DNA of 64,000 nucleotides, from contig NZ_KE386495.1 in assembly GCF_000427425.1 (NCBI RefSeq), positions 166,733-230,732 of the forward strand, given 5' to 3'. The first letter of the stretch is position 1. Each line of letters starts with the position of its first letter. A program made the position numbers and the translations under genes. Below, one piece after another: positions 8,661-63,160 of the stretch. The notes under the pieces are model-generated. The model ran no database searches and had not been told where the DNA came from. It was given only the letters and a program-made list of their open reading frames with translations. This DNA is from Caldanaerobius polysaccharolyticus DSM 13641. GTDB lineage: Bacteria; Bacillota; Thermoanaerobacteria; Thermoanaerobacterales; Caldanaerobiaceae.

Positions 8661-8725
8661 CGTCTTTTTGTATAGGTTTTTACTTTTACAACTTTTTACT
8701 GTGGGAAAAGTGTGGGAATAGATAG

Positions 8726-8797
8726 CTGGGATGGCAGGATTCGAACCTACGAATGCCAGAGTCAAAGTCTGGTGCCTTACCGCTTGGCTACATCCCA
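8726..8797 (-). tRNA. tRNA-Gln (TTG)
   Basis: 72-nt cloverleaf with acceptor TGGGATG/CATCCCA, anticodon loop CTTTGAC (anticodon TTG) and T-loop GGTTCGAATCC. The U1-A72 first pair and G73 discriminator are typical for tRNA-Gln. CCA is not encoded. Last gene of the tRNA operon and the likely attachment site of the prophage. Confidence 0.95.
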
Positions 8798-8817
8798 ATT
8801 TTTTTATCTCTTCCATG

Positions 8818-8891
8818 TGCGCCCTGTAGGATTCGAACCTACGACCTCCAGATTCGAAGTCTGTCACTCTGTCCAGCTGAGCTAAGGGCGC
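8818..8891 (-). tRNA. tRNA-Arg (TCG)
   Basis: 74-nt cloverleaf, acceptor GCGCCCT/AGGGCGC, anticodon loop CTTCGAA (anticodon TCG), T-loop GGTTCGAATCC, discriminator A. CCA not encoded. Confidence 0.95.
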
Positions 8892-8903
8892 ATATTAAAA
8901 TAG

Positions 8904-8977
8904 AGCGGACAACGAGGTTCGAACTCGCGACCTCCACCTTGGCAAGGTGGCGCTCTAGCCAGCTGAGCTATGTCCGC
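8904..8977 (-). tRNA. tRNA-Gly (GCC)
   Basis: 74-nt cloverleaf, acceptor starting GCGGACA, anticodon loop CTTGCCA (anticodon GCC), T-loop AGTTCGAACCT, discriminator U. CCA not encoded. Confidence 0.95.
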
Positions 8978-8985
8978 ATAAACAG

Positions 8986-9069
8986 TGCGGAAGAAGGGAC
9001 TTGAACCCCCATGGCCTCGCGGCCACTAGAACCTGAATCTAGCGCGTCTGCCAATTCCGCCACTTCCGC
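8986..9069 (-). tRNA. tRNA-Leu (CAG)
   Basis: 84-nt tRNA with a long variable arm (GGCCGCGAGGCC region), acceptor GCGGAAG, anticodon loop TTCAGGT (anticodon CAG), discriminator A. CCA not encoded. Confidence 0.95.
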
Positions 9070-9078
9070 ATGTTAAAC

Positions 9079-9156
9079 TGGGGTGGATAGTGGGACTTGA
9101 ACCCACGACCTCCAGAGCCACAATCTGGCGCTCTAGCCAACTGAACTATATCCACC
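9079..9156 (-). tRNA. tRNA-His (GTG)
   Basis: Acceptor GTGGATA with an extra 5' G (G-1) opposite discriminator C73, both hallmarks of tRNA-His. Anticodon loop TTGTGGC (anticodon GTG). It is the only one of the seven tRNAs that encodes its 3' CCA (9079-9081). Confidence 0.95.
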
Positions 9157-9162
9157 ACATAG

Positions 9163-9236
9163 TGCGCCTAGAGAGAGTCGAACTCCCGACACACGGATTA
9201 GAAGTCCGTTGCTCTATCCAACTGAGCTATAGGCGC
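9163..9236 (-). tRNA. tRNA-Arg (TCT)
   Basis: 74-nt cloverleaf, acceptor GCGCCTA/TAGGCGC, anticodon loop CTTCTAA (anticodon TCT), discriminator A. CCA not encoded. Confidence 0.95.
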
Positions 9237-9241
9237 ATTAG

Positions 9242-9312
9242 AGCGGGTGAAGGGAATCGAACCCTCGCGACCAGCTTGGAAGGCTGGGGCTCTACCATTG
9301 AGCTACACCCGC
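9242..9312 (-). tRNA. tRNA-Gly (TCC)
   Basis: 71-nt cloverleaf, acceptor GCGGGTG/CACCCGC, anticodon loop CTTCCAA (anticodon TCC), discriminator U. First gene of the seven-tRNA operon. CCA not encoded. Confidence 0.95.
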
Positions 9313-26361: not shown

Positions 26362-26402
26362 AATAAAATGGCTCCTGCTTTTAATTTTGTAAAGCAGGAG
26401 CC
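26362..26402 (-). terminator. Expression-platform terminator of the fluoride riboswitch
   Basis: GGCTCCTGCTTT pairs with AAAGCAGGAGCC, followed by ATTTTATTTTT on the minus strand. The 5' arm is also the 3' part of the aptamer, the standard arrangement in which fluoride binding prevents termination. Confidence 0.9.
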
Positions 26403-26440
26403 ATCAGCACACAGCATTTACGGCGAGCTCCATCGCCTAT
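26385..26440 (-). ncRNA. Fluoride riboswitch aptamer (crcB motif)
   Basis: The minus strand reads GGCGATGGAGCTCGCC then GTAAATGCTG and finally GCTGATGGCTCCTGC, the conserved core of the crcB-motif RNA: first helix, the short conserved joint, and the pseudoknot partner. Promoter, aptamer, terminator and gene follow each other in order. Confidence 0.92.
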
Positions 26441-26460
26441 AATCGATTGCGTACACAAAT

Positions 26461-43618: not shown

Positions 43619-43648
43619 AAAAAAGGCCTGTACTTTTAAAAGTACAGG
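43619..43648 (-). terminator. Terminator of the hyd operon
   Basis: Perfect 11-bp stem CCTGTACTTTT/AAAAGTACAGG followed by CCTTTTTT on the minus strand; the hydG stop codon lies within it. Confidence 0.85.
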
Positions 43649-45054
43649 TCTCTTTGTCCTTGCTCTATCTTTTTTAAACGCTCCACCGTTATCTGCCTCA
43701 CCCTATCGCTCTTTATCTCTTTAAGCCCTTCCTGGATGACCTTTTCGCCAACCCTCTTTGTCTCATCTGACGCGTAATCCTCTAGGTATTCTTTAAATGT
43801 AAGGAGGGCATTGGGCTGACAACAATTCTGTATATTGCCCGTTTTGGCCAATGCCATAAACCTCTCACCAGTCCTGCCGCTTCTATAGCAAGCGGTACAG
43901 TAACTAGGCACATAACCAGACTCACATAGCATCCTTATGATTTCCTCAGGGCTCCTGTTATCGCCTACCTCAAACTGAGCTGTTTTCTCCATTTCCCCTT
44001 TCTTTTCGTATTCCTCCGCATACCCTCCTACGCCGGTACAAGAGCCAGCGCTTATTTGGGATATACCCACAGAAATCACTTCATCTCTAAAGCCAGGAGC
44101 TTCCCTTGTAGACAGTATCATCCCCGTGTAAGGCACCGCCAAACGGATAATAGCTACCAGCTTTTTAAAATCACGGTCAGAAACCATATACGGATAATTT
44201 TTAAAGGACACGCCTTCCGCAGGCCTCAACCTGGGAACCGATATGGTATGGGGCCCTACCCCAAAGGTTTCATCCAGATGCTTGGAGTGAAATATCAAGC
44301 CCATTACCTCAAACTTGTAGTCATATAGCCCAAATAAAACGCCCAATCCCACATCGTCTATCCCCGCCTTCATAGCCCTATCCATAGCTGTGGTATGCCA
44401 ATCATAATCGGATTTAGGCCCCATGGGATGTACCTTTTTGTACGTTTCTCTGTGATATGTCTCCTGGAACAGCACATATGTGCCTATGCCGGCTTCTTTA
44501 AGCTTTTTGAATTCATCGATGGTAGTCGCCGCTATATTTACATTTACTCTCCTTATATTCCCCCTGTCTTTCTGCGTAGCGTATATGGTCTTTATAGCAT
44601 CAACCACGTATTCTATAGGGTTATTAACAGGGTCTTCTCCCAGTTCAAGGGCAATCCTTTTATGTCCAAGGGTTTCTAAAATCCTCACCTCTTCAGCTAT
44701 CTCTTCCATGGTGAGCTTTCTCCTCTTGATCTTGTCATTAGTCCTATGATAGGCGCAATACGCGCAGTTATTAATACAGTAATTGCTTATATAAAGCGGT
44801 GCAAACAACACTATGCGCTTTCCGTATATCTTCTCTTTTATAATACGGGCCGCCTTATACACCTTCTCCAGTTCGCCCTCGTCTTCCACCTGCAACAGGG
44901 TCGCTACCTCAAGGGGCGTCAGCCCTTTAGCTTCAAGGGACTTTTCGATTATCCTGTCCACATCAAACTGGCGCTTCTTGCCCTCCTCCAGAAGCCTGTA
45001 TATCAGGTCTTCATCTATAAAATCCGCCCTTTCCCATTCTTCCACCTTTATCAT
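43636..45054 (-). CDS. hydG: [FeFe] hydrogenase H-cluster maturase HydG
   Basis: 472 aa from ATG at 45054 (GAGAGGAG nine bases upstream). Radical-SAM tyrosine lyase that makes the CO and CN ligands of the H-cluster 2Fe subunit. The SAM cluster motif is C-x3-C-x2-C (C93, C97, C100; CINNCAYCAYHR), and the C-terminal auxiliary cluster is seen in CTACYRSGRTGERFM followed by NCCQPNALLTFKEYLEDY. Close relative of ThiH but longer and with the extra C-terminal cluster, which marks it as HydG. Last gene of the TM1266-hydE-hydG operon. Confidence 0.96.
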   Translation of the reverse strand: MIKVEEWERADFIDEDLIYRLLEEGKKRQFDVDRIIEKSLEAKGLTPLEVATLLQVEDEGELEKVYKAARIIKEKIYGKRIVLFAPLYISNYCINNCAYCAYHRTNDKIKRRKLTMEEIAEEVRILETLGHKRIALELGEDPVNNPIEYVVDAIKTIYATQKDRGNIRRVNVNIAATTIDEFKKLKEAGIGTYVLFQETYHRETYKKVHPMGPKSDYDWHTTAMDRAMKAGIDDVGLGVLFGLYDYKFEVMGLIFHSKHLDETFGVGPHTISVPRLRPAEGVSFKNYPYMVSDRDFKKLVAIIRLAVPYTGMILSTREAPGFRDEVISVGISQISAGSCTGVGGYAEEYEKKGEMEKTAQFEVGDNRSPEEIIRMLCESGYVPSYCTACYRSGRTGERFMALAKTGNIQNCCQPNALLTFKEYLEDYASDETKRVGEKVIQEGLKEIKSDRVRQITVERLKKIEQGQRDLYF

Positions 45055-45104
45055 ATACGACATCTCCTCTCATGATAATTGAGCGACTTGTTAAAAAGTA
45101 CGCT

Positions 45105-46145
45105 TCACCTGCCCCTATAGCTTCCGTAATCCTGGCCGACTTCCCTTCCCAATGACCTTATAATCCCCTCAATACACAGGCGGCAGTGGGAAGGCTTCTC
45201 TCCTATGCATATCTTGGATGGATATATTTCGTATCTGGGCCTGTACTCAGGAGGCATCACATTGGGCATCACCACATTAGCCCCTGCCATCAGCGCTTTC
45301 TGCCTACCCTGAGGGTGAATGGTGCCCACCGCTGTGGTGGCAGGGATATTGGCATAAGGCAGCATAAGCCTTGTAATAGCCACCATCCTCAACGTCATCT
45401 CCAGCGTTCCTCTGGCTTCATCTCTAAAGGGGGTGCTATGATGGGGTATAAAAGGACCTATACCAGCCATTTCCACATCCAATTCCTTTAAAAGCATAAT
45501 GTCCTCAGCCAAATGTTCTACCGTCTGACCAGGCAAACCTACTATATCCCCTGATCCCACCTCGTAACCCAAATCCTTTAGTGCCATAAGGCAGTCGATT
45601 CTGTCTTTATAACTCATATCAGGGTGCATTTCCCTGTAATGACCAGGATTAGCGGTCTCGAACTTTAAAAGATACCTATCAGCACCCGCTTCCTTCATGA
45701 TCTTGTACTCTTCATAGCTTCTTTCTCCAATGCACAGGGTTATAGCTACATCGGCTATTTTCTTTATTTCCTTTATAATATACGCCATAACATCCGCTGT
45801 ATAAAATTCGTCCTCGCCCGATTGCAGCACAATGGTTTTATATCCCAGCAATGCCGCATTGTGCGCGATCTTCACAATGTCCTCAGGAGACAGCCTGTAT
45901 CGCTCTAGGGACACATTATCGCGCCTCAAGCCGCAATACTTGCAATTTCTCCTGCAGTGACTGGAAAACTCTATCAACCCTCTCAAATGCACACAGTCGC
46001 CCACGCACTCATGCCTCAATTGATCCGCCTTTTTAAAAAGGTACGCCTCCTCTTCCACCCCTTTGGGCTCCAACAGCCTCATCACTTCGCCTTTCGCAAG
46101 ATTATGTTCCTTATAGGCCTTGTCTACCAGCTCAAAGTAATCCAT
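45105..46145 (-). CDS. hydE: [FeFe] hydrogenase H-cluster maturase HydE
   Basis: 346 aa. Radical-SAM enzyme that acts on the HydG product during assembly of the 2Fe subcluster. Motif C64-x3-C68-x2-C71 (HCRRNCKYCGLRRDN), then LQSGEDEFYTADV, LKFETANPGHYREMHP, GDIVGLPGQT and GIGPFIPHHSTPF, all HydE-like. GAGGTGATTAT precedes the ATG at 46145. HydF, the GTPase scaffold, is not in the window. Confidence 0.96.
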   Translation of the reverse strand: MDYFELVDKAYKEHNLAKGEVMRLLEPKGVEEEAYLFKKADQLRHECVGDCVHLRGLIEFSSHCRRNCKYCGLRRDNVSLERYRLSPEDIVKIAHNAALLGYKTIVLQSGEDEFYTADVMAYIIKEIKKIADVAITLCIGERSYEEYKIMKEAGADRYLLKFETANPGHYREMHPDMSYKDRIDCLMALKDLGYEVGSGDIVGLPGQTVEHLAEDIMLLKELDVEMAGIGPFIPHHSTPFRDEARGTLEMTLRMVAITRLMLPYANIPATTAVGTIHPQGRQKALMAGANVVMPNVMPPEYRPRYEIYPSKICIGEKPSHCRLCIEGIIRSLGREVGQDYGSYRGR

Positions 46146-46149
46146 ATAA

Positions 46150-46395
46150 TCACCTCGTAAGTGCCGTCTTTACCCGAACACCGGCTAAATTTCCCAATTT
46201 TCCCGTAAGAGCCCCTATCTCATCGGTGGTTCCGTCTACTATAAGGGATATAACCGAAAGCCCCCTATCTCTATAAGGTATACCCATCCTTCCCACGATT
46301 ATATCCCCGTACTCGCTCAATATCCTGTTTAGGCTATCCGCCACCTGCTCCCTATGCTCTACCACTATGCCGATAACGCCAATACGCTTTTCCAT
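46150..46395 (-). CDS. TM1266-family iron-only hydrogenase system regulator
   Basis: 81-aa ACT/ferredoxin-like protein (RIGVIGIVVEHREQVADSLNRIL, DIIVGRMGIPY, GLSVISLIVDGTTDEIGALTGKLG), a family found almost exclusively with hydE/hydG/hydF. Thought to be a putative regulator or metal/ligand sensor; no experiment is assumed. First gene of the operon, four bases from hydE. It lies behind the long leader with a terminator. Confidence 0.92.
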   Translation of the reverse strand: MEKRIGVIGIVVEHREQVADSLNRILSEYGDIIVGRMGIPYRDRGLSVISLIVDGTTDEIGALTGKLGNLAGVRVKTALTR

Positions 46396-46410
46396 TGTCT
46401 CACCCCAACT

Positions 46411-46532
46411 AAAAAAGCCTACCTTAAAAAGGTAGACCTAATTCGCTTATTTGCTCAAAATATAAGTAAATTACGCCTCCCTTCTTATCAGGTACTACCC
46501 CTCTAAGTCAGGATGAATATTAAACTTTGTTT
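46411..46532 (-). promoter_or_regulatory. Structured leader of the hyd operon with terminator and antiterminator
   Basis: On the minus strand the leader (about 137 bases from predicted start to ATG) ends in an intrinsic terminator: GTCTACCTT/AAGGTAGGC with TTTTTT (46411-46437). The 5' arm AGGTCTACC (46431-46439) is also complementary to GGTAGTACCT (46490-46499, one bulge), so an antiterminator can form. Between them ATAAG, CTTAT and ATAAG again can pair in two exclusive ways. This is attenuator or riboswitch architecture; I recognise no known class. Confidence 0.65.
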
Positions 46533-46538
46533 GTTATA

Positions 46539-46567
46539 ATATTAACATATTTTTACCTGTAAGTCAA
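46539..46567 (-). promoter_or_regulatory. Promoter of the hyd operon
   Basis: TTGACT (46562-46567), 17-base spacer, TAATAT (46539-46544) with an extended TG at the -10 box. It overlaps the end of the convergent-on-same-strand gerKB-like gene. Confidence 0.8.
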
Positions 46568-50775: not shown

Positions 50776-50886
50776 TTTTATGTAGGTCGGTTGCACTATT
50801 GACTCCATATGGCCCAAGTGCCCATATACAGGCCATATATCATCATCCCCTACACTTTAATAAATTATACCATATATGCCAATCTG

Positions 50887-53031
50887 TCAAGAGTTAAAAT
50901 TTTTTGTCTTTATCAATTGATAAAAACTATCCAACATCTCCACATCTACCTTTTGCGGCTCCCTGCCATACCTCACCCTGTTAAAAGCAAAGGCCACATC
51001 GCGAAAATTTATCTCACATTCCAGGTGTTTTGATATCCTATCGGCAAATTCCAGTATTGTCTCCCCTGAATACATTTTAAACCCACAACTTGATAAATGT
51101 GCTAACACCTCTTCAAACTGCCACAGAGCCCTTTGCTTGGGATCTAATGGTACCACAGGCTTTTTCTTTCTGTACCTAAAAGCCCATACGGCAAAAATAA
51201 CTAAGGCAAAAAGTCCAGCTGTTAAAATAGCCACTCCTCTTGCCCATTCTGGCCCTTTGTTGAGCTTGTCGCTCTCTGATTTTGAAGTGCCGCTATAGGT
51301 TTTATTTTCACCGCTGCTATCCTTTTGTGTTTCATTTCCTTTATTATTTGTGCCCTGAGTATAATCAGGCGTAAATGTTTCATGGCTGTAACCGCTATAA
51401 TACCCGTTGGCAATGCCATAAGGTGTCGCGCCCCCAGCCGAATAACTCCTTCCATAATAAAGGGGGAGATAAAAAGGCGTAGGCTCAAAGTTAACCCATC
51501 CATAACCCGGGAAATAAGCCTCCACCCACGCATGAGCAGCAGCGTCGGTAACGGCCTTGTAGCCTCCTTGCGCGCTTTCACCGCTGTCCGAAGCCCTATA
51601 TATAAAGCCTGTCACATACCTTGCAGGTATTCCTACACATCTAAGCATTACAGCCATAGCCGAGGCGTAGTAAGTGCAATAGCCCTTTTTTAATTCAAAG
51701 AGAAAATAGTCCGTAAAATCCCTGGAAGCAGGCGTTGAAGGGACATCTAAATTGTACTCGTATTGCCTCAGATACGCTTCTATTGCCAGCGCCTTATCAA
51801 AAGGCGTCTTATAACCCTCGGTTATCTTTAAAGCCAGGTCTTTTACTCTCTGGGGAAGTTCATCAGGAAGCTGCAAATACCTTTTCATGCTATCAGGCAC
51901 TTCCATGGATGTATAAGCCCTCATCGCATTGGGGTCTACATCAGGTTGAAAAGCCGTAAAGGTGTACTTAAAACCACTGCTTACGCGACGGCTATAGCGC
52001 AACTGAAGGTCTTCATCGGATTCAATTGCGCCGCCGGGCGTCTTCACGTATACAGGCTGTAAAACAGTGAACAACACCCTGGTGCTCCACGGCCCCTGCA
52101 TAATATCCACAGTAATATTTCTGCCTTTGACGCCTTTACTATAGGCTTTGGGTATAAATCCATCCTGGACATCTACCCATCGCTCACCGCTTTTCGCCCA
52201 CCTTTTGCCGTCATACATATCATACACACCACCTCTCAAATACAGTGTATCTGCGGTGGTTTTCACATAAAGCGCCACTCCATTATCAGAAACAGCAGGA
52301 CCTCCTAACCACTGAGCTCCTTCTGTAAACCCCGTAAAACCAACACCCGCAGTGTCATTCCACCCTCTCCATGTCCTGACCACGGGGAATGTATCCTGTA
52401 CCCATTGGCTGAGCCTCTCCCAGGAAACAGGCTGTATCTTCACAGGCATGTAATGCACTGCACCCATCACAATCGCACAGGCCATAAAACCCCATCCCAT
52501 CACCCTTATATCGGCGTTATCAAAAGGGTAATTAAATACAGCGCAGTACACTAAAGATGCGGCCACAAAATACAGCATATAGGTATATGCCCTGTCTACA
52601 AAGCCATACCACTGCACGGCAAATATTCCAATCCCTATGGCAAAGGCTACGTAAAACAGCCTAAACCTCACCGCCAACGCGTACATGGCCAGAGAAATGC
52701 CGGCGTACATCAACAGCGAAAGGGGGACTACGTAGCCGTTTGCCCTCTCGTTGCCACTAATGTATTGCACTGACCACCCGATGAAATCTCCGAGGTGTAC
52801 CGCCTTCTCTCCATGCCAATGCGCAAAAGCCCAGAGCAAAATCCCACAGCCAATAAAAACAGCGCTATGCCATGGATACTTAAATATAAAAGCAGAGGCC
52901 AGCATGAAGAGGACTGTAAGCGCCAATACAGCGCTTTGAGAATAAGGGGATGCAAGCCCTCTGGATACAGACTCATTTATTGTAAAAGCCATGAACGCTG
53001 AAATCGCGAATAACACCCATTTTTTACCCAA
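50887..53031 (-). CDS. Transglutaminase-like membrane protein (TgpA-type)
   Basis: 714 aa. N-terminal six to eight transmembrane helices (about 1-205), then an extracellular transglutaminase-like core with catalytic Cys in KKGYCTYYASAMAVMLR (about 465), His in DAAAHAWVEAYFPGYG and the acidic residue in WVNFEPTP; last helix about 625-645 and a C-terminal DUF4129-like tail. Third gene of the MoxR-DUF58-transglutaminase operon, in which the ATPase is thought to act on the other two proteins in an envelope-related process. Confidence 0.9.
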   Translation of the reverse strand: MGKKWVLFAISAFMAFTINESVSRGLASPYSQSAVLALTVLFMLASAFIFKYPWHSAVFIGCGILLWAFAHWHGEKAVHLGDFIGWSVQYISGNERANGYVVPLSLLMYAGISLAMYALAVRFRLFYVAFAIGIGIFAVQWYGFVDRAYTYMLYFVAASLVYCAVFNYPFDNADIRVMGWGFMACAIVMGAVHYMPVKIQPVSWERLSQWVQDTFPVVRTWRGWNDTAGVGFTGFTEGAQWLGGPAVSDNGVALYVKTTADTLYLRGGVYDMYDGKRWAKSGERWVDVQDGFIPKAYSKGVKGRNITVDIMQGPWSTRVLFTVLQPVYVKTPGGAIESDEDLQLRYSRRVSSGFKYTFTAFQPDVDPNAMRAYTSMEVPDSMKRYLQLPDELPQRVKDLALKITEGYKTPFDKALAIEAYLRQYEYNLDVPSTPASRDFTDYFLFELKKGYCTYYASAMAVMLRCVGIPARYVTGFIYRASDSGESAQGGYKAVTDAAAHAWVEAYFPGYGWVNFEPTPFYLPLYYGRSYSAGGATPYGIANGYYSGYSHETFTPDYTQGTNNKGNETQKDSSGENKTYSGTSKSESDKLNKGPEWARGVAILTAGLFALVIFAVWAFRYRKKKPVVPLDPKQRALWQFEEVLAHLSSCGFKMYSGETILEFADRISKHLECEINFRDVAFAFNRVRYGREPQKVDVEMLDSFYQLIKTKNFNS

Positions 53032-62396: not shown

Positions 62397-63160
62397 GTTT
62401 CAACCCCTCATAGGTAGACTCAAAACTTATTATTTTCTTTATATCTTCAGCTTTTTGGCTTATGTTTCAATCCCTCATAGGTAGACTCAAAACGCTCAAT
62501 TCTCAAGGCGGTGTATATTTCAATATTCTGAGTTTCAATCCCTCATAGGTAGACTCAAAACGCACCTTCTCTGCCATCTCCATCCATTTTTGAAGTGAGT
62601 TTCAATCCCTCATAGGTAGACTCAAAACTCAGCTTCAATAGGCGTAATAGGGTGAATGTTATTATGTTTCAATCCCTCATAGGTAGACTCAAAACTGACG
62701 GCTGCTAGTACCGTTCATCATATCGTTGAGAGTTTCAATCCCTCATAGGTAGACTCAAAACTGCTGGTACTATCGCCTCTCAACTCTGCTGTCATGTGTT
62801 TCAATCCCTCATAGGTAGACTCAAAACAAACGGAGTCATTATGTTTGACGACATTGGCATGTGTTTCAATCCCTCATAGGTAGACTCAAAACGTTCATTT
62901 AACGCTTTATCTATGTCCCAACCTCTTAAGTTTCAATCCCTCATAGGTAGACTCAAAACCATTTTATACACTCCTTTTTTATTTTTTTGTTTTGCTGGTT
63001 TCAATCCCTCATAGGTAGACTCAAAACCAGCACAAGTTATGGACGTTGAAAAGATAGCAAGTCAGTTTCAATCCCTCATAGGTAGACTCAAAACTTATAT
63101 TTATTCCTGGTATCCTGTTTATGGCTCGGAGTTTCAATCCCTCATAGGTAGACTCAAAAC
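62397..63160 (-). CRISPR. CRISPR array, 12 repeats and 11 spacers
   Basis: Twelve 30-base repeats starting with GTTTCAATCCCTC and ending AGACTCAAAAC on the plus strand, spaced by 35-38 bases (spacers 37, 38, 37, 37, 36, 36, 35, 37, 38, 37, 36). Starts: 62397, 62464, 62532, 62599, 62666, 62732, 62798, 62863, 62930, 62998, 63065, 63131. Eleven are identical; the first (62397) has C for T at position 8. Read on the minus strand the repeat ends ATTGAAAC, the crRNA handle typical of type I-B systems of Clostridia. No cas genes are within the window. I saw no spacer matching the prophage by eye. Confidence 0.97.

Follow-up and report, generated by a model that had tools for sequence, protein, structure and literature searches.

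A conserved tandem-GA hairpin in the leader of an [FeFe]-hydrogenase maturation operon: a probable attenuator, possibly sensed through TM1266

The [FeFe]-hydrogenase maturation operon of Caldanaerobius polysaccharolyticus DSM 13641 raises the question of whether its leader is a regulatory RNA switch, and what such a switch would sense. The operon lies on the minus strand of a 64,000-nucleotide stretch of DNA, called the window here, in the order TM1266, hydE, hydG (NCBIfam equivalogs). The radical-SAM pathway for the [FeFe]-hydrogenase cofactor is chemically well studied, and RNA control of it was not found described. TM1266 is labelled a putative hydrogenase regulator, with no mechanism given. 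The genes, the promoter, and the leader are as follows.

43636 to 45063, minus strand: hydG (TIGR03955, 6e-203)
45105 to 46145, minus strand: hydE (TIGR03956, 4e-123)
46150 to 46395, minus strand: TM1266 family gene (TIGR03959, 3e-35), start codon at 46395
46401 to 46406, minus strand: Shine-Dalgarno-like GGGGTG of TM1266, from sequence
46410 to 46439, minus strand: intrinsic terminator, an 11-bp stem (46439-46415) followed by T-rich DNA, −12.3 kcal/mol
46396 to 46532, minus strand: leader RNA of 137 nucleotides from its predicted start
46539 to 46567, minus strand: promoter TTGACT-17-TAATAT with extended −10 (TG before the −10), from sequence

The leader (46532-46396) folds at −47.0 kcal/mol, compared with −26.7 ± 3.5 for shuffled sequences (z −5.8, with 0 of 200 shuffles as good), and its terminator ends about 16 nucleotides upstream of the TM1266 start codon. 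The promoter, the leader of about 137 bases with its strong terminator 16 bases before the gene, and the TM1266-family gene with the hydrogenase maturation operon downstream all agree with a preliminary description of this locus. The promoter hexamers and their spacing are identical in the leader of a congener. The full-length minimum-energy fold pairs CAUCCUGACU (46504-46516, minus strand), in the 5’ strand of the hairpin described below, with AGUUGGGGUG (46401-46416, minus strand) at the TM1266 ribosome site, Shine-Dalgarno-like sequence included. This modelled pairing is a possible extra translational layer in the window species.

No known RNA family was matched at the leader when the whole window was scanned against Rfam 15 (4227 models). 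With the leader alone and E ≤ 10, the best match was to a microRNA model (E 0.058; 19.6 bits against a cut-off of 56), and 29 related loci gave nothing better than E 0.6. The covariance models for TPP, SAM, T-box, preQ1, and cobalamin are unmatched at the leader, as had been claimed for these classes. At other places in the window, that scan did pick up riboswitches of the c-di-GMP-II and fluoride classes. A 2017 survey reportedly lists 224 candidate RNA motifs, one of them under the name ‘GA-cis’; many of the 224 are contained in Rfam 15, in which the leader is unmatched. No described RNA at hydE, hydG, or TM1266 was found in the literature searched, and an earlier description elsewhere is possible. 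The leader works like known attenuators and riboswitches yet matches none of the families tested, and it looks like a previously uncatalogued element.

The part of the leader that is conserved is a short hairpin.

46478 to 46513, minus strand: conserved tandem-GA hairpin (putative sensor element), 36 nucleotides, supported by conservation and covariation; the sole model match in the window genome at E ≤ 0.05

Along the minus strand (46513-46478) it reads UCCU-GA-CUUA-GA-GGG-loop-CCU-GA-UAAG-AA-GGGA. It is composed of three short helices with two 2x2 internal loops of the tandem-GA type between them. Both strands follow the pattern CCUGA-NNNN-RAGGG, which gives the duplex a pseudo-two-fold symmetry. 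The TM1266 upstream regions of the congener and of 12 further genomes, which appear to be Caldicellulosiruptor, share UCCUGACUU..GGG....CCUGA..AG.AGGG nearly letter for letter, with the common fold UCCU-GA-CUUA-GA-GGG(C)-loop-(G)CCU-GA-UAAG-(G/A)A-GGGR. The tandem G-A/A-G pairs between helices and the CUGA-type strands recall kink-turns and other tandem-GA motifs. Unlike a kink-turn, which has a three-nucleotide bulge beside tandem G-A pairs, the window and most units lack this bulge and contain symmetric 2x2 loops, with the two loops in pseudo-two-fold relation.

The preliminary description had read the leader as attenuator- or riboswitch-like. Conservation and covariation support this outline, while the helices it named are only partly the conserved ones. 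Its pairing of AGGTCTACC with GGTAGTACCT, with one bulge, can form but is not kept in the Caldicellulosiruptor-like leaders. The conserved elements are instead the hairpin and the helix that its 3’ strand (AAGAAGGGAGGC) can form with the 5’ arm of the terminator (GUCUACCUUUUU). As for the ATAAG-CTTAT-ATAAG trio, its first ATAAG supplies the 3’ strand of the hairpin’s conserved middle helix, and the CTTAT/ATAAG helix lengthens the antiterminator in a species-specific way.

Conservation and covariation in homologous leaders had been set beforehand as the test of this reading, and both are strong. A descriptor that fixes the loops and their flanking pairs and leaves the middle helix free was run on 110 sequences lying upstream of TM1266 in many families of Firmicutes. 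It matches 42 of them, whereas dinucleotide shuffles gave on average 0.04 matches and the reverse complements none. Although the descriptor did not demand it, nearly all matches have a complementary middle helix, with the variants UUA/UAA, GAC/GUC, AAC/GUU, AAA/UUU, CCA/UGG, GGU/ACC, AGU/AUU, and others. A first model built from 11 near-identical leaders was too narrow and was superseded by a 22-unit model, for which the seed hairpin loops were trimmed to 4 nucleotides before alignment. The covariation score of the 22 units is 0.562, compared with 0.145 ± 0.029 for shuffled units and at most 0.153 when the partners are slid. A second set of 38 sites, mostly at hydG, hydE, hydF, and transporter loci, scores 0.537 against 0.129 shuffled; 35 of these sites were not used in the model, three rows are seed units, and the alignment was fitted to the model. 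A search of 300 genomes with the 22-unit model gave sites in 71. Together, these comparisons of sequence establish the hairpin as conserved, with compensatory base changes, across the Firmicutes.

The loop nucleotides are conserved more than the helices, and some leaders contain tandem copies of the hairpin (for example L165, L021, L023, and L142). In six TM1266 leaders from other families (L170, L173, L194, L202, L211, and L214), the sequence CUGA...AAGG..UUCGU..CC.GA...AAGGCG is scored weakly by the model and may be a variant hairpin. A pattern scan of genome contigs returned 64 scattered records from unrelated organisms, which were read as chance; that collection seems to be without near relatives.

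A DNA regulator site, or a chance palindrome beside an ordinary upstream terminator, would also place a symmetric sequence here, and a candidate Rex site does lie just upstream. Such a reading is very improbable given the compensatory changes in helices of three to four pairs, the gene-facing orientation, the tandem copies, and the terminators. Opposed internal GA mismatches would moreover be needless in a DNA site.

The hairpin stands before an expression platform. The alternative structure in the window is listed here.

46425 to 46487, minus strand, approximate ends: antiterminator, in which the hairpin 3’ strand with AGGC-G-UAAUU pairs with AAUUA-G-GUCU-A-CCUUUUU

By a strict rule, 29 of 40 leaders have a terminator after the hairpin, and most of the others show a long-loop terminator by eye. 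Pairing between the terminator 5’ arm and the hairpin 3’ strand, extended by the next bases, is stronger than in shuffles, with a mean z of −1.16 over 28 leaders and a z of −3.4 in the window leader. Cognate terminator arms pair better than non-cognate ones (4 of 300 permutations were as good). Just before the terminator 3’ arm, the hairpin form of the window leader (105 nucleotides, −24.4) and the antiterminator form (109 nucleotides, −25.2) are nearly isoenergetic. The computed hairpin and antiterminator are mutually exclusive, as in protein-binding attenuators. The conserved covarying element also precedes functionally linked genes and carries an expression platform, as riboswitches do, ligand binding being a separate matter.

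As long as the hairpin stays folded, its 3’ strand would be tied up, the terminator would form, and the operon would be off. When it opens, the antiterminator would form and the operon would be on. A second version is seen in four leaders of ECF-type transporter genes (L248-L251), where the hairpin 3’ strand GAAGGGGG lies about 8 nucleotides before the start codon and is the Shine-Dalgarno sequence; folding would block translation directly. Since the 3’ strand either can pair with the terminator 5’ arm or is the ribosome site, the folded hairpin is predicted to mean off in both versions. The leader is thus very probably a cis-regulatory attenuator, a conserved termination or translation switch, whatever its signal.

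Ribonucleic antiterminator (RAT) hairpins, of the LicT/SacY/BglG type, are short pseudo-symmetric leader hairpins with two internal loops that are exclusive with a terminator and bound by a protein dimer. The window hairpin is likewise short and pseudo-symmetric, with two internal loops and an exclusive relation at the terminator. RAT differs in having its own consensus and asymmetric loops and in preventing termination when bound, whereas the window hairpin has symmetric tandem-GA loops, predicts termination when folded, and has no gene for a LicT/SacY/BglG-type protein beside it. Small or tandem-aptamer riboswitches such as guanidine-II and glycine consist of repeated small hairpins that precede genes of biosynthesis and transport and act through a terminator or the ribosome site. 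The element shares its small size, its repetition, the kinds of gene, and the platforms with them, but it matches no Rfam family.

The genes under the element can be sorted into maturation genes and two kinds of transporter, and the element is oriented toward the gene throughout. It occurs before hydG in 11 loci, before hydE followed by hydG in five, before hydE in one, and before TM1266-hydF in two. In four loci (L282-L285) it is found both before TM1266 and between TM1266 and hydG. Five loci (L248-L251 and L259) have it before a gene for an ECF-type S component (PF12822), which in L232 and L236 follows TM1266. It also lies before an SsuA/NMT1-type ABC transporter (L247 and L243/L278), which follows TM1266 in L270 and L272. 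By these gene neighbourhoods, H-cluster maturation genes and two transporter kinds with a common element constitute a regulon.

Three members of the S component group are 44-72% identical to the first, and a PDB search found no relative. This uncharacterised component may have as its substrate a compound with a link to H-cluster assembly. The SsuA/NMT1-type genes under the element (L243, L247, L270, L272, and L278) are in the same operon as TM1266 in some genomes. Two genomes with such genes (G149 and G318) are without a HydG match, perhaps because of assembly gaps. Model matches away from hyd and transporter genes (L237/L276, L264, L265, L268, L269, and L273) are probably chance, and those at contig ends (L224/L281 and L253) were set aside.

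SAM, tyrosine, iron-sulfur status, and the TM1266 protein itself had been suggested as the signal. Across 159 HydG genomes, the element is present in 62 of the 132 with TM1266 and in 2 of the 27 without, with neither of these two sites near hydG (Fisher 7e-5; counting both as false gives 4e-7; kinship among the genomes is ignored). At the hyd and transporter genes themselves, it occurs in 0 of the 27 genomes lacking TM1266. For 20 of these 27, the sequence upstream of hydG yielded no match (best E 0.32), and a comparable amount of TM1266-upstream sequence gave 45 matches at E ≤ 0.1, of which 18 are seeds. Within one family (f70), one genus (g94) lacks both TM1266 and the element, and two genera (g175 and g258) have both. 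Among the four suggested signals, this co-occurrence in genomes favours TM1266; the co-occurrence may also be shared ancestry.

TM1266 (structure 2NZC) is similar to the ligand-binding C domain of NikR and lacks a DNA-binding part, and an RNA-binding, ligand-responsive role is plausible by this analogy. No report of TM1266 binding RNA was found in the literature searched. The protein would bind the two-fold-symmetric hairpin, probably with a dependence on a small ligand or metal, and would repress the maturases and the transporters together with the gene that encodes it. Counting against this chain are the many genomes with TM1266 and no detectable element, including a sister family in the same order, and the transporter genes in the regulon, which are what a metabolite riboswitch predicts. 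The full chain, a hairpin attenuator switch with TM1266 as its sensor, is given a probability of roughly 0.5. A broader proposal is somewhat more tentative. The element would belong to a new class of regulatory RNA that monitors H-cluster biosynthesis by way of TM1266, and TM1266, a small NikR-C/ACT-like protein, would itself represent a new kind of RNA-binding regulator. The element would also single out an ECF S component and an SsuA-like ABC system, both uncharacterised, as importers for a compound connected to the assembly of the H-cluster.

In a metabolite- or ion-binding riboswitch, the hairpin would be an aptamer, often in tandem, for a product, precursor, or by-product of H-cluster assembly; the ligand would fold it and turn maturases and importers off, and TM1266 would merely be regulated. 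Biosynthesis genes and importers under one element form the classic pattern for this, and the strongly conserved loops, the tandem copies, and the choice of terminator or ribosome-site platforms suit it. The element is nonetheless very small, simple, and near-symmetric, and apart from the GA loops nothing in it suggests a pocket. A riboswitch for the pathway would be expected also in the HydG genomes without TM1266, where it is not seen. As the main rival to the TM1266 reading, a riboswitch is credible, with the odds against it.

Another protein, such as a general RNA-binding or antitermination factor, could bind the hairpin instead, or the attenuator could be passive, constitutive, or temperature-dependent, with TM1266 a bystander. 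Tandem-GA helices are common protein-docking sites, some of the hosts are thermophiles, and the pre-terminator RNA is weak at 60 °C (−5.5 kcal/mol). The confinement of the element to the genes of one pathway and to TM1266-bearing genomes, which points to a pathway-specific signal, and its spread over many Firmicutes families make this unlikely.

The element supplies a mechanism that is concrete and testable, and it brings transporters into the maturation regulon; knowing what they carry could disclose a compound linked to H-cluster assembly. It could also offer a way to influence how thermophilic fermenters produce hydrogen.

A separate layer of control may act at the promoter.

46531 to 46548, either strand: Rex operator-like palindrome over the −10, 12 of 14 consensus positions, in the same place in 14 relatives

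With this candidate operator at its promoter, the window leader resembles members of the Rex regulon, and the operator would add NADH-responsive control of initiation. According to the available passages of a study of Caldicellulosiruptor bescii, Rex bound in vitro to an operator in the promoter, 181 bp upstream of the Athe_0168 start codon, in the orthologous operon of Athe_0168 and hydG (PMC6391272). These passages describe a DNA operator, label the first gene ‘CopG family’, and do not mention a leader RNA. They also report that deletion of rex did not raise Athe_0168 expression (log2 −0.21 to −0.27), which fits a second control layer; as other Rex targets likewise showed no rise, these data support a further layer weakly (PMC6391272).

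Other RNA features and repeats were identified in the window. The c-di-GMP-II riboswitch (50776-50859, minus strand, 79.8 bits) is directly 3’ of a long minus-strand ORF (50887-53031). It faces the end of a plus-strand spore-germination cluster, with no obvious minus-strand gene directly after it. The fluoride riboswitch is at 26388-26446 (minus strand, 47 bits). A CRISPR array with DR2-type repeats (62464-63160, plus strand) contains at least 11 repeats, and seven tRNA genes (Gln, Arg, Gly, Leu, His, Arg, and Gly) are clustered at 8725-9312 on the minus strand.
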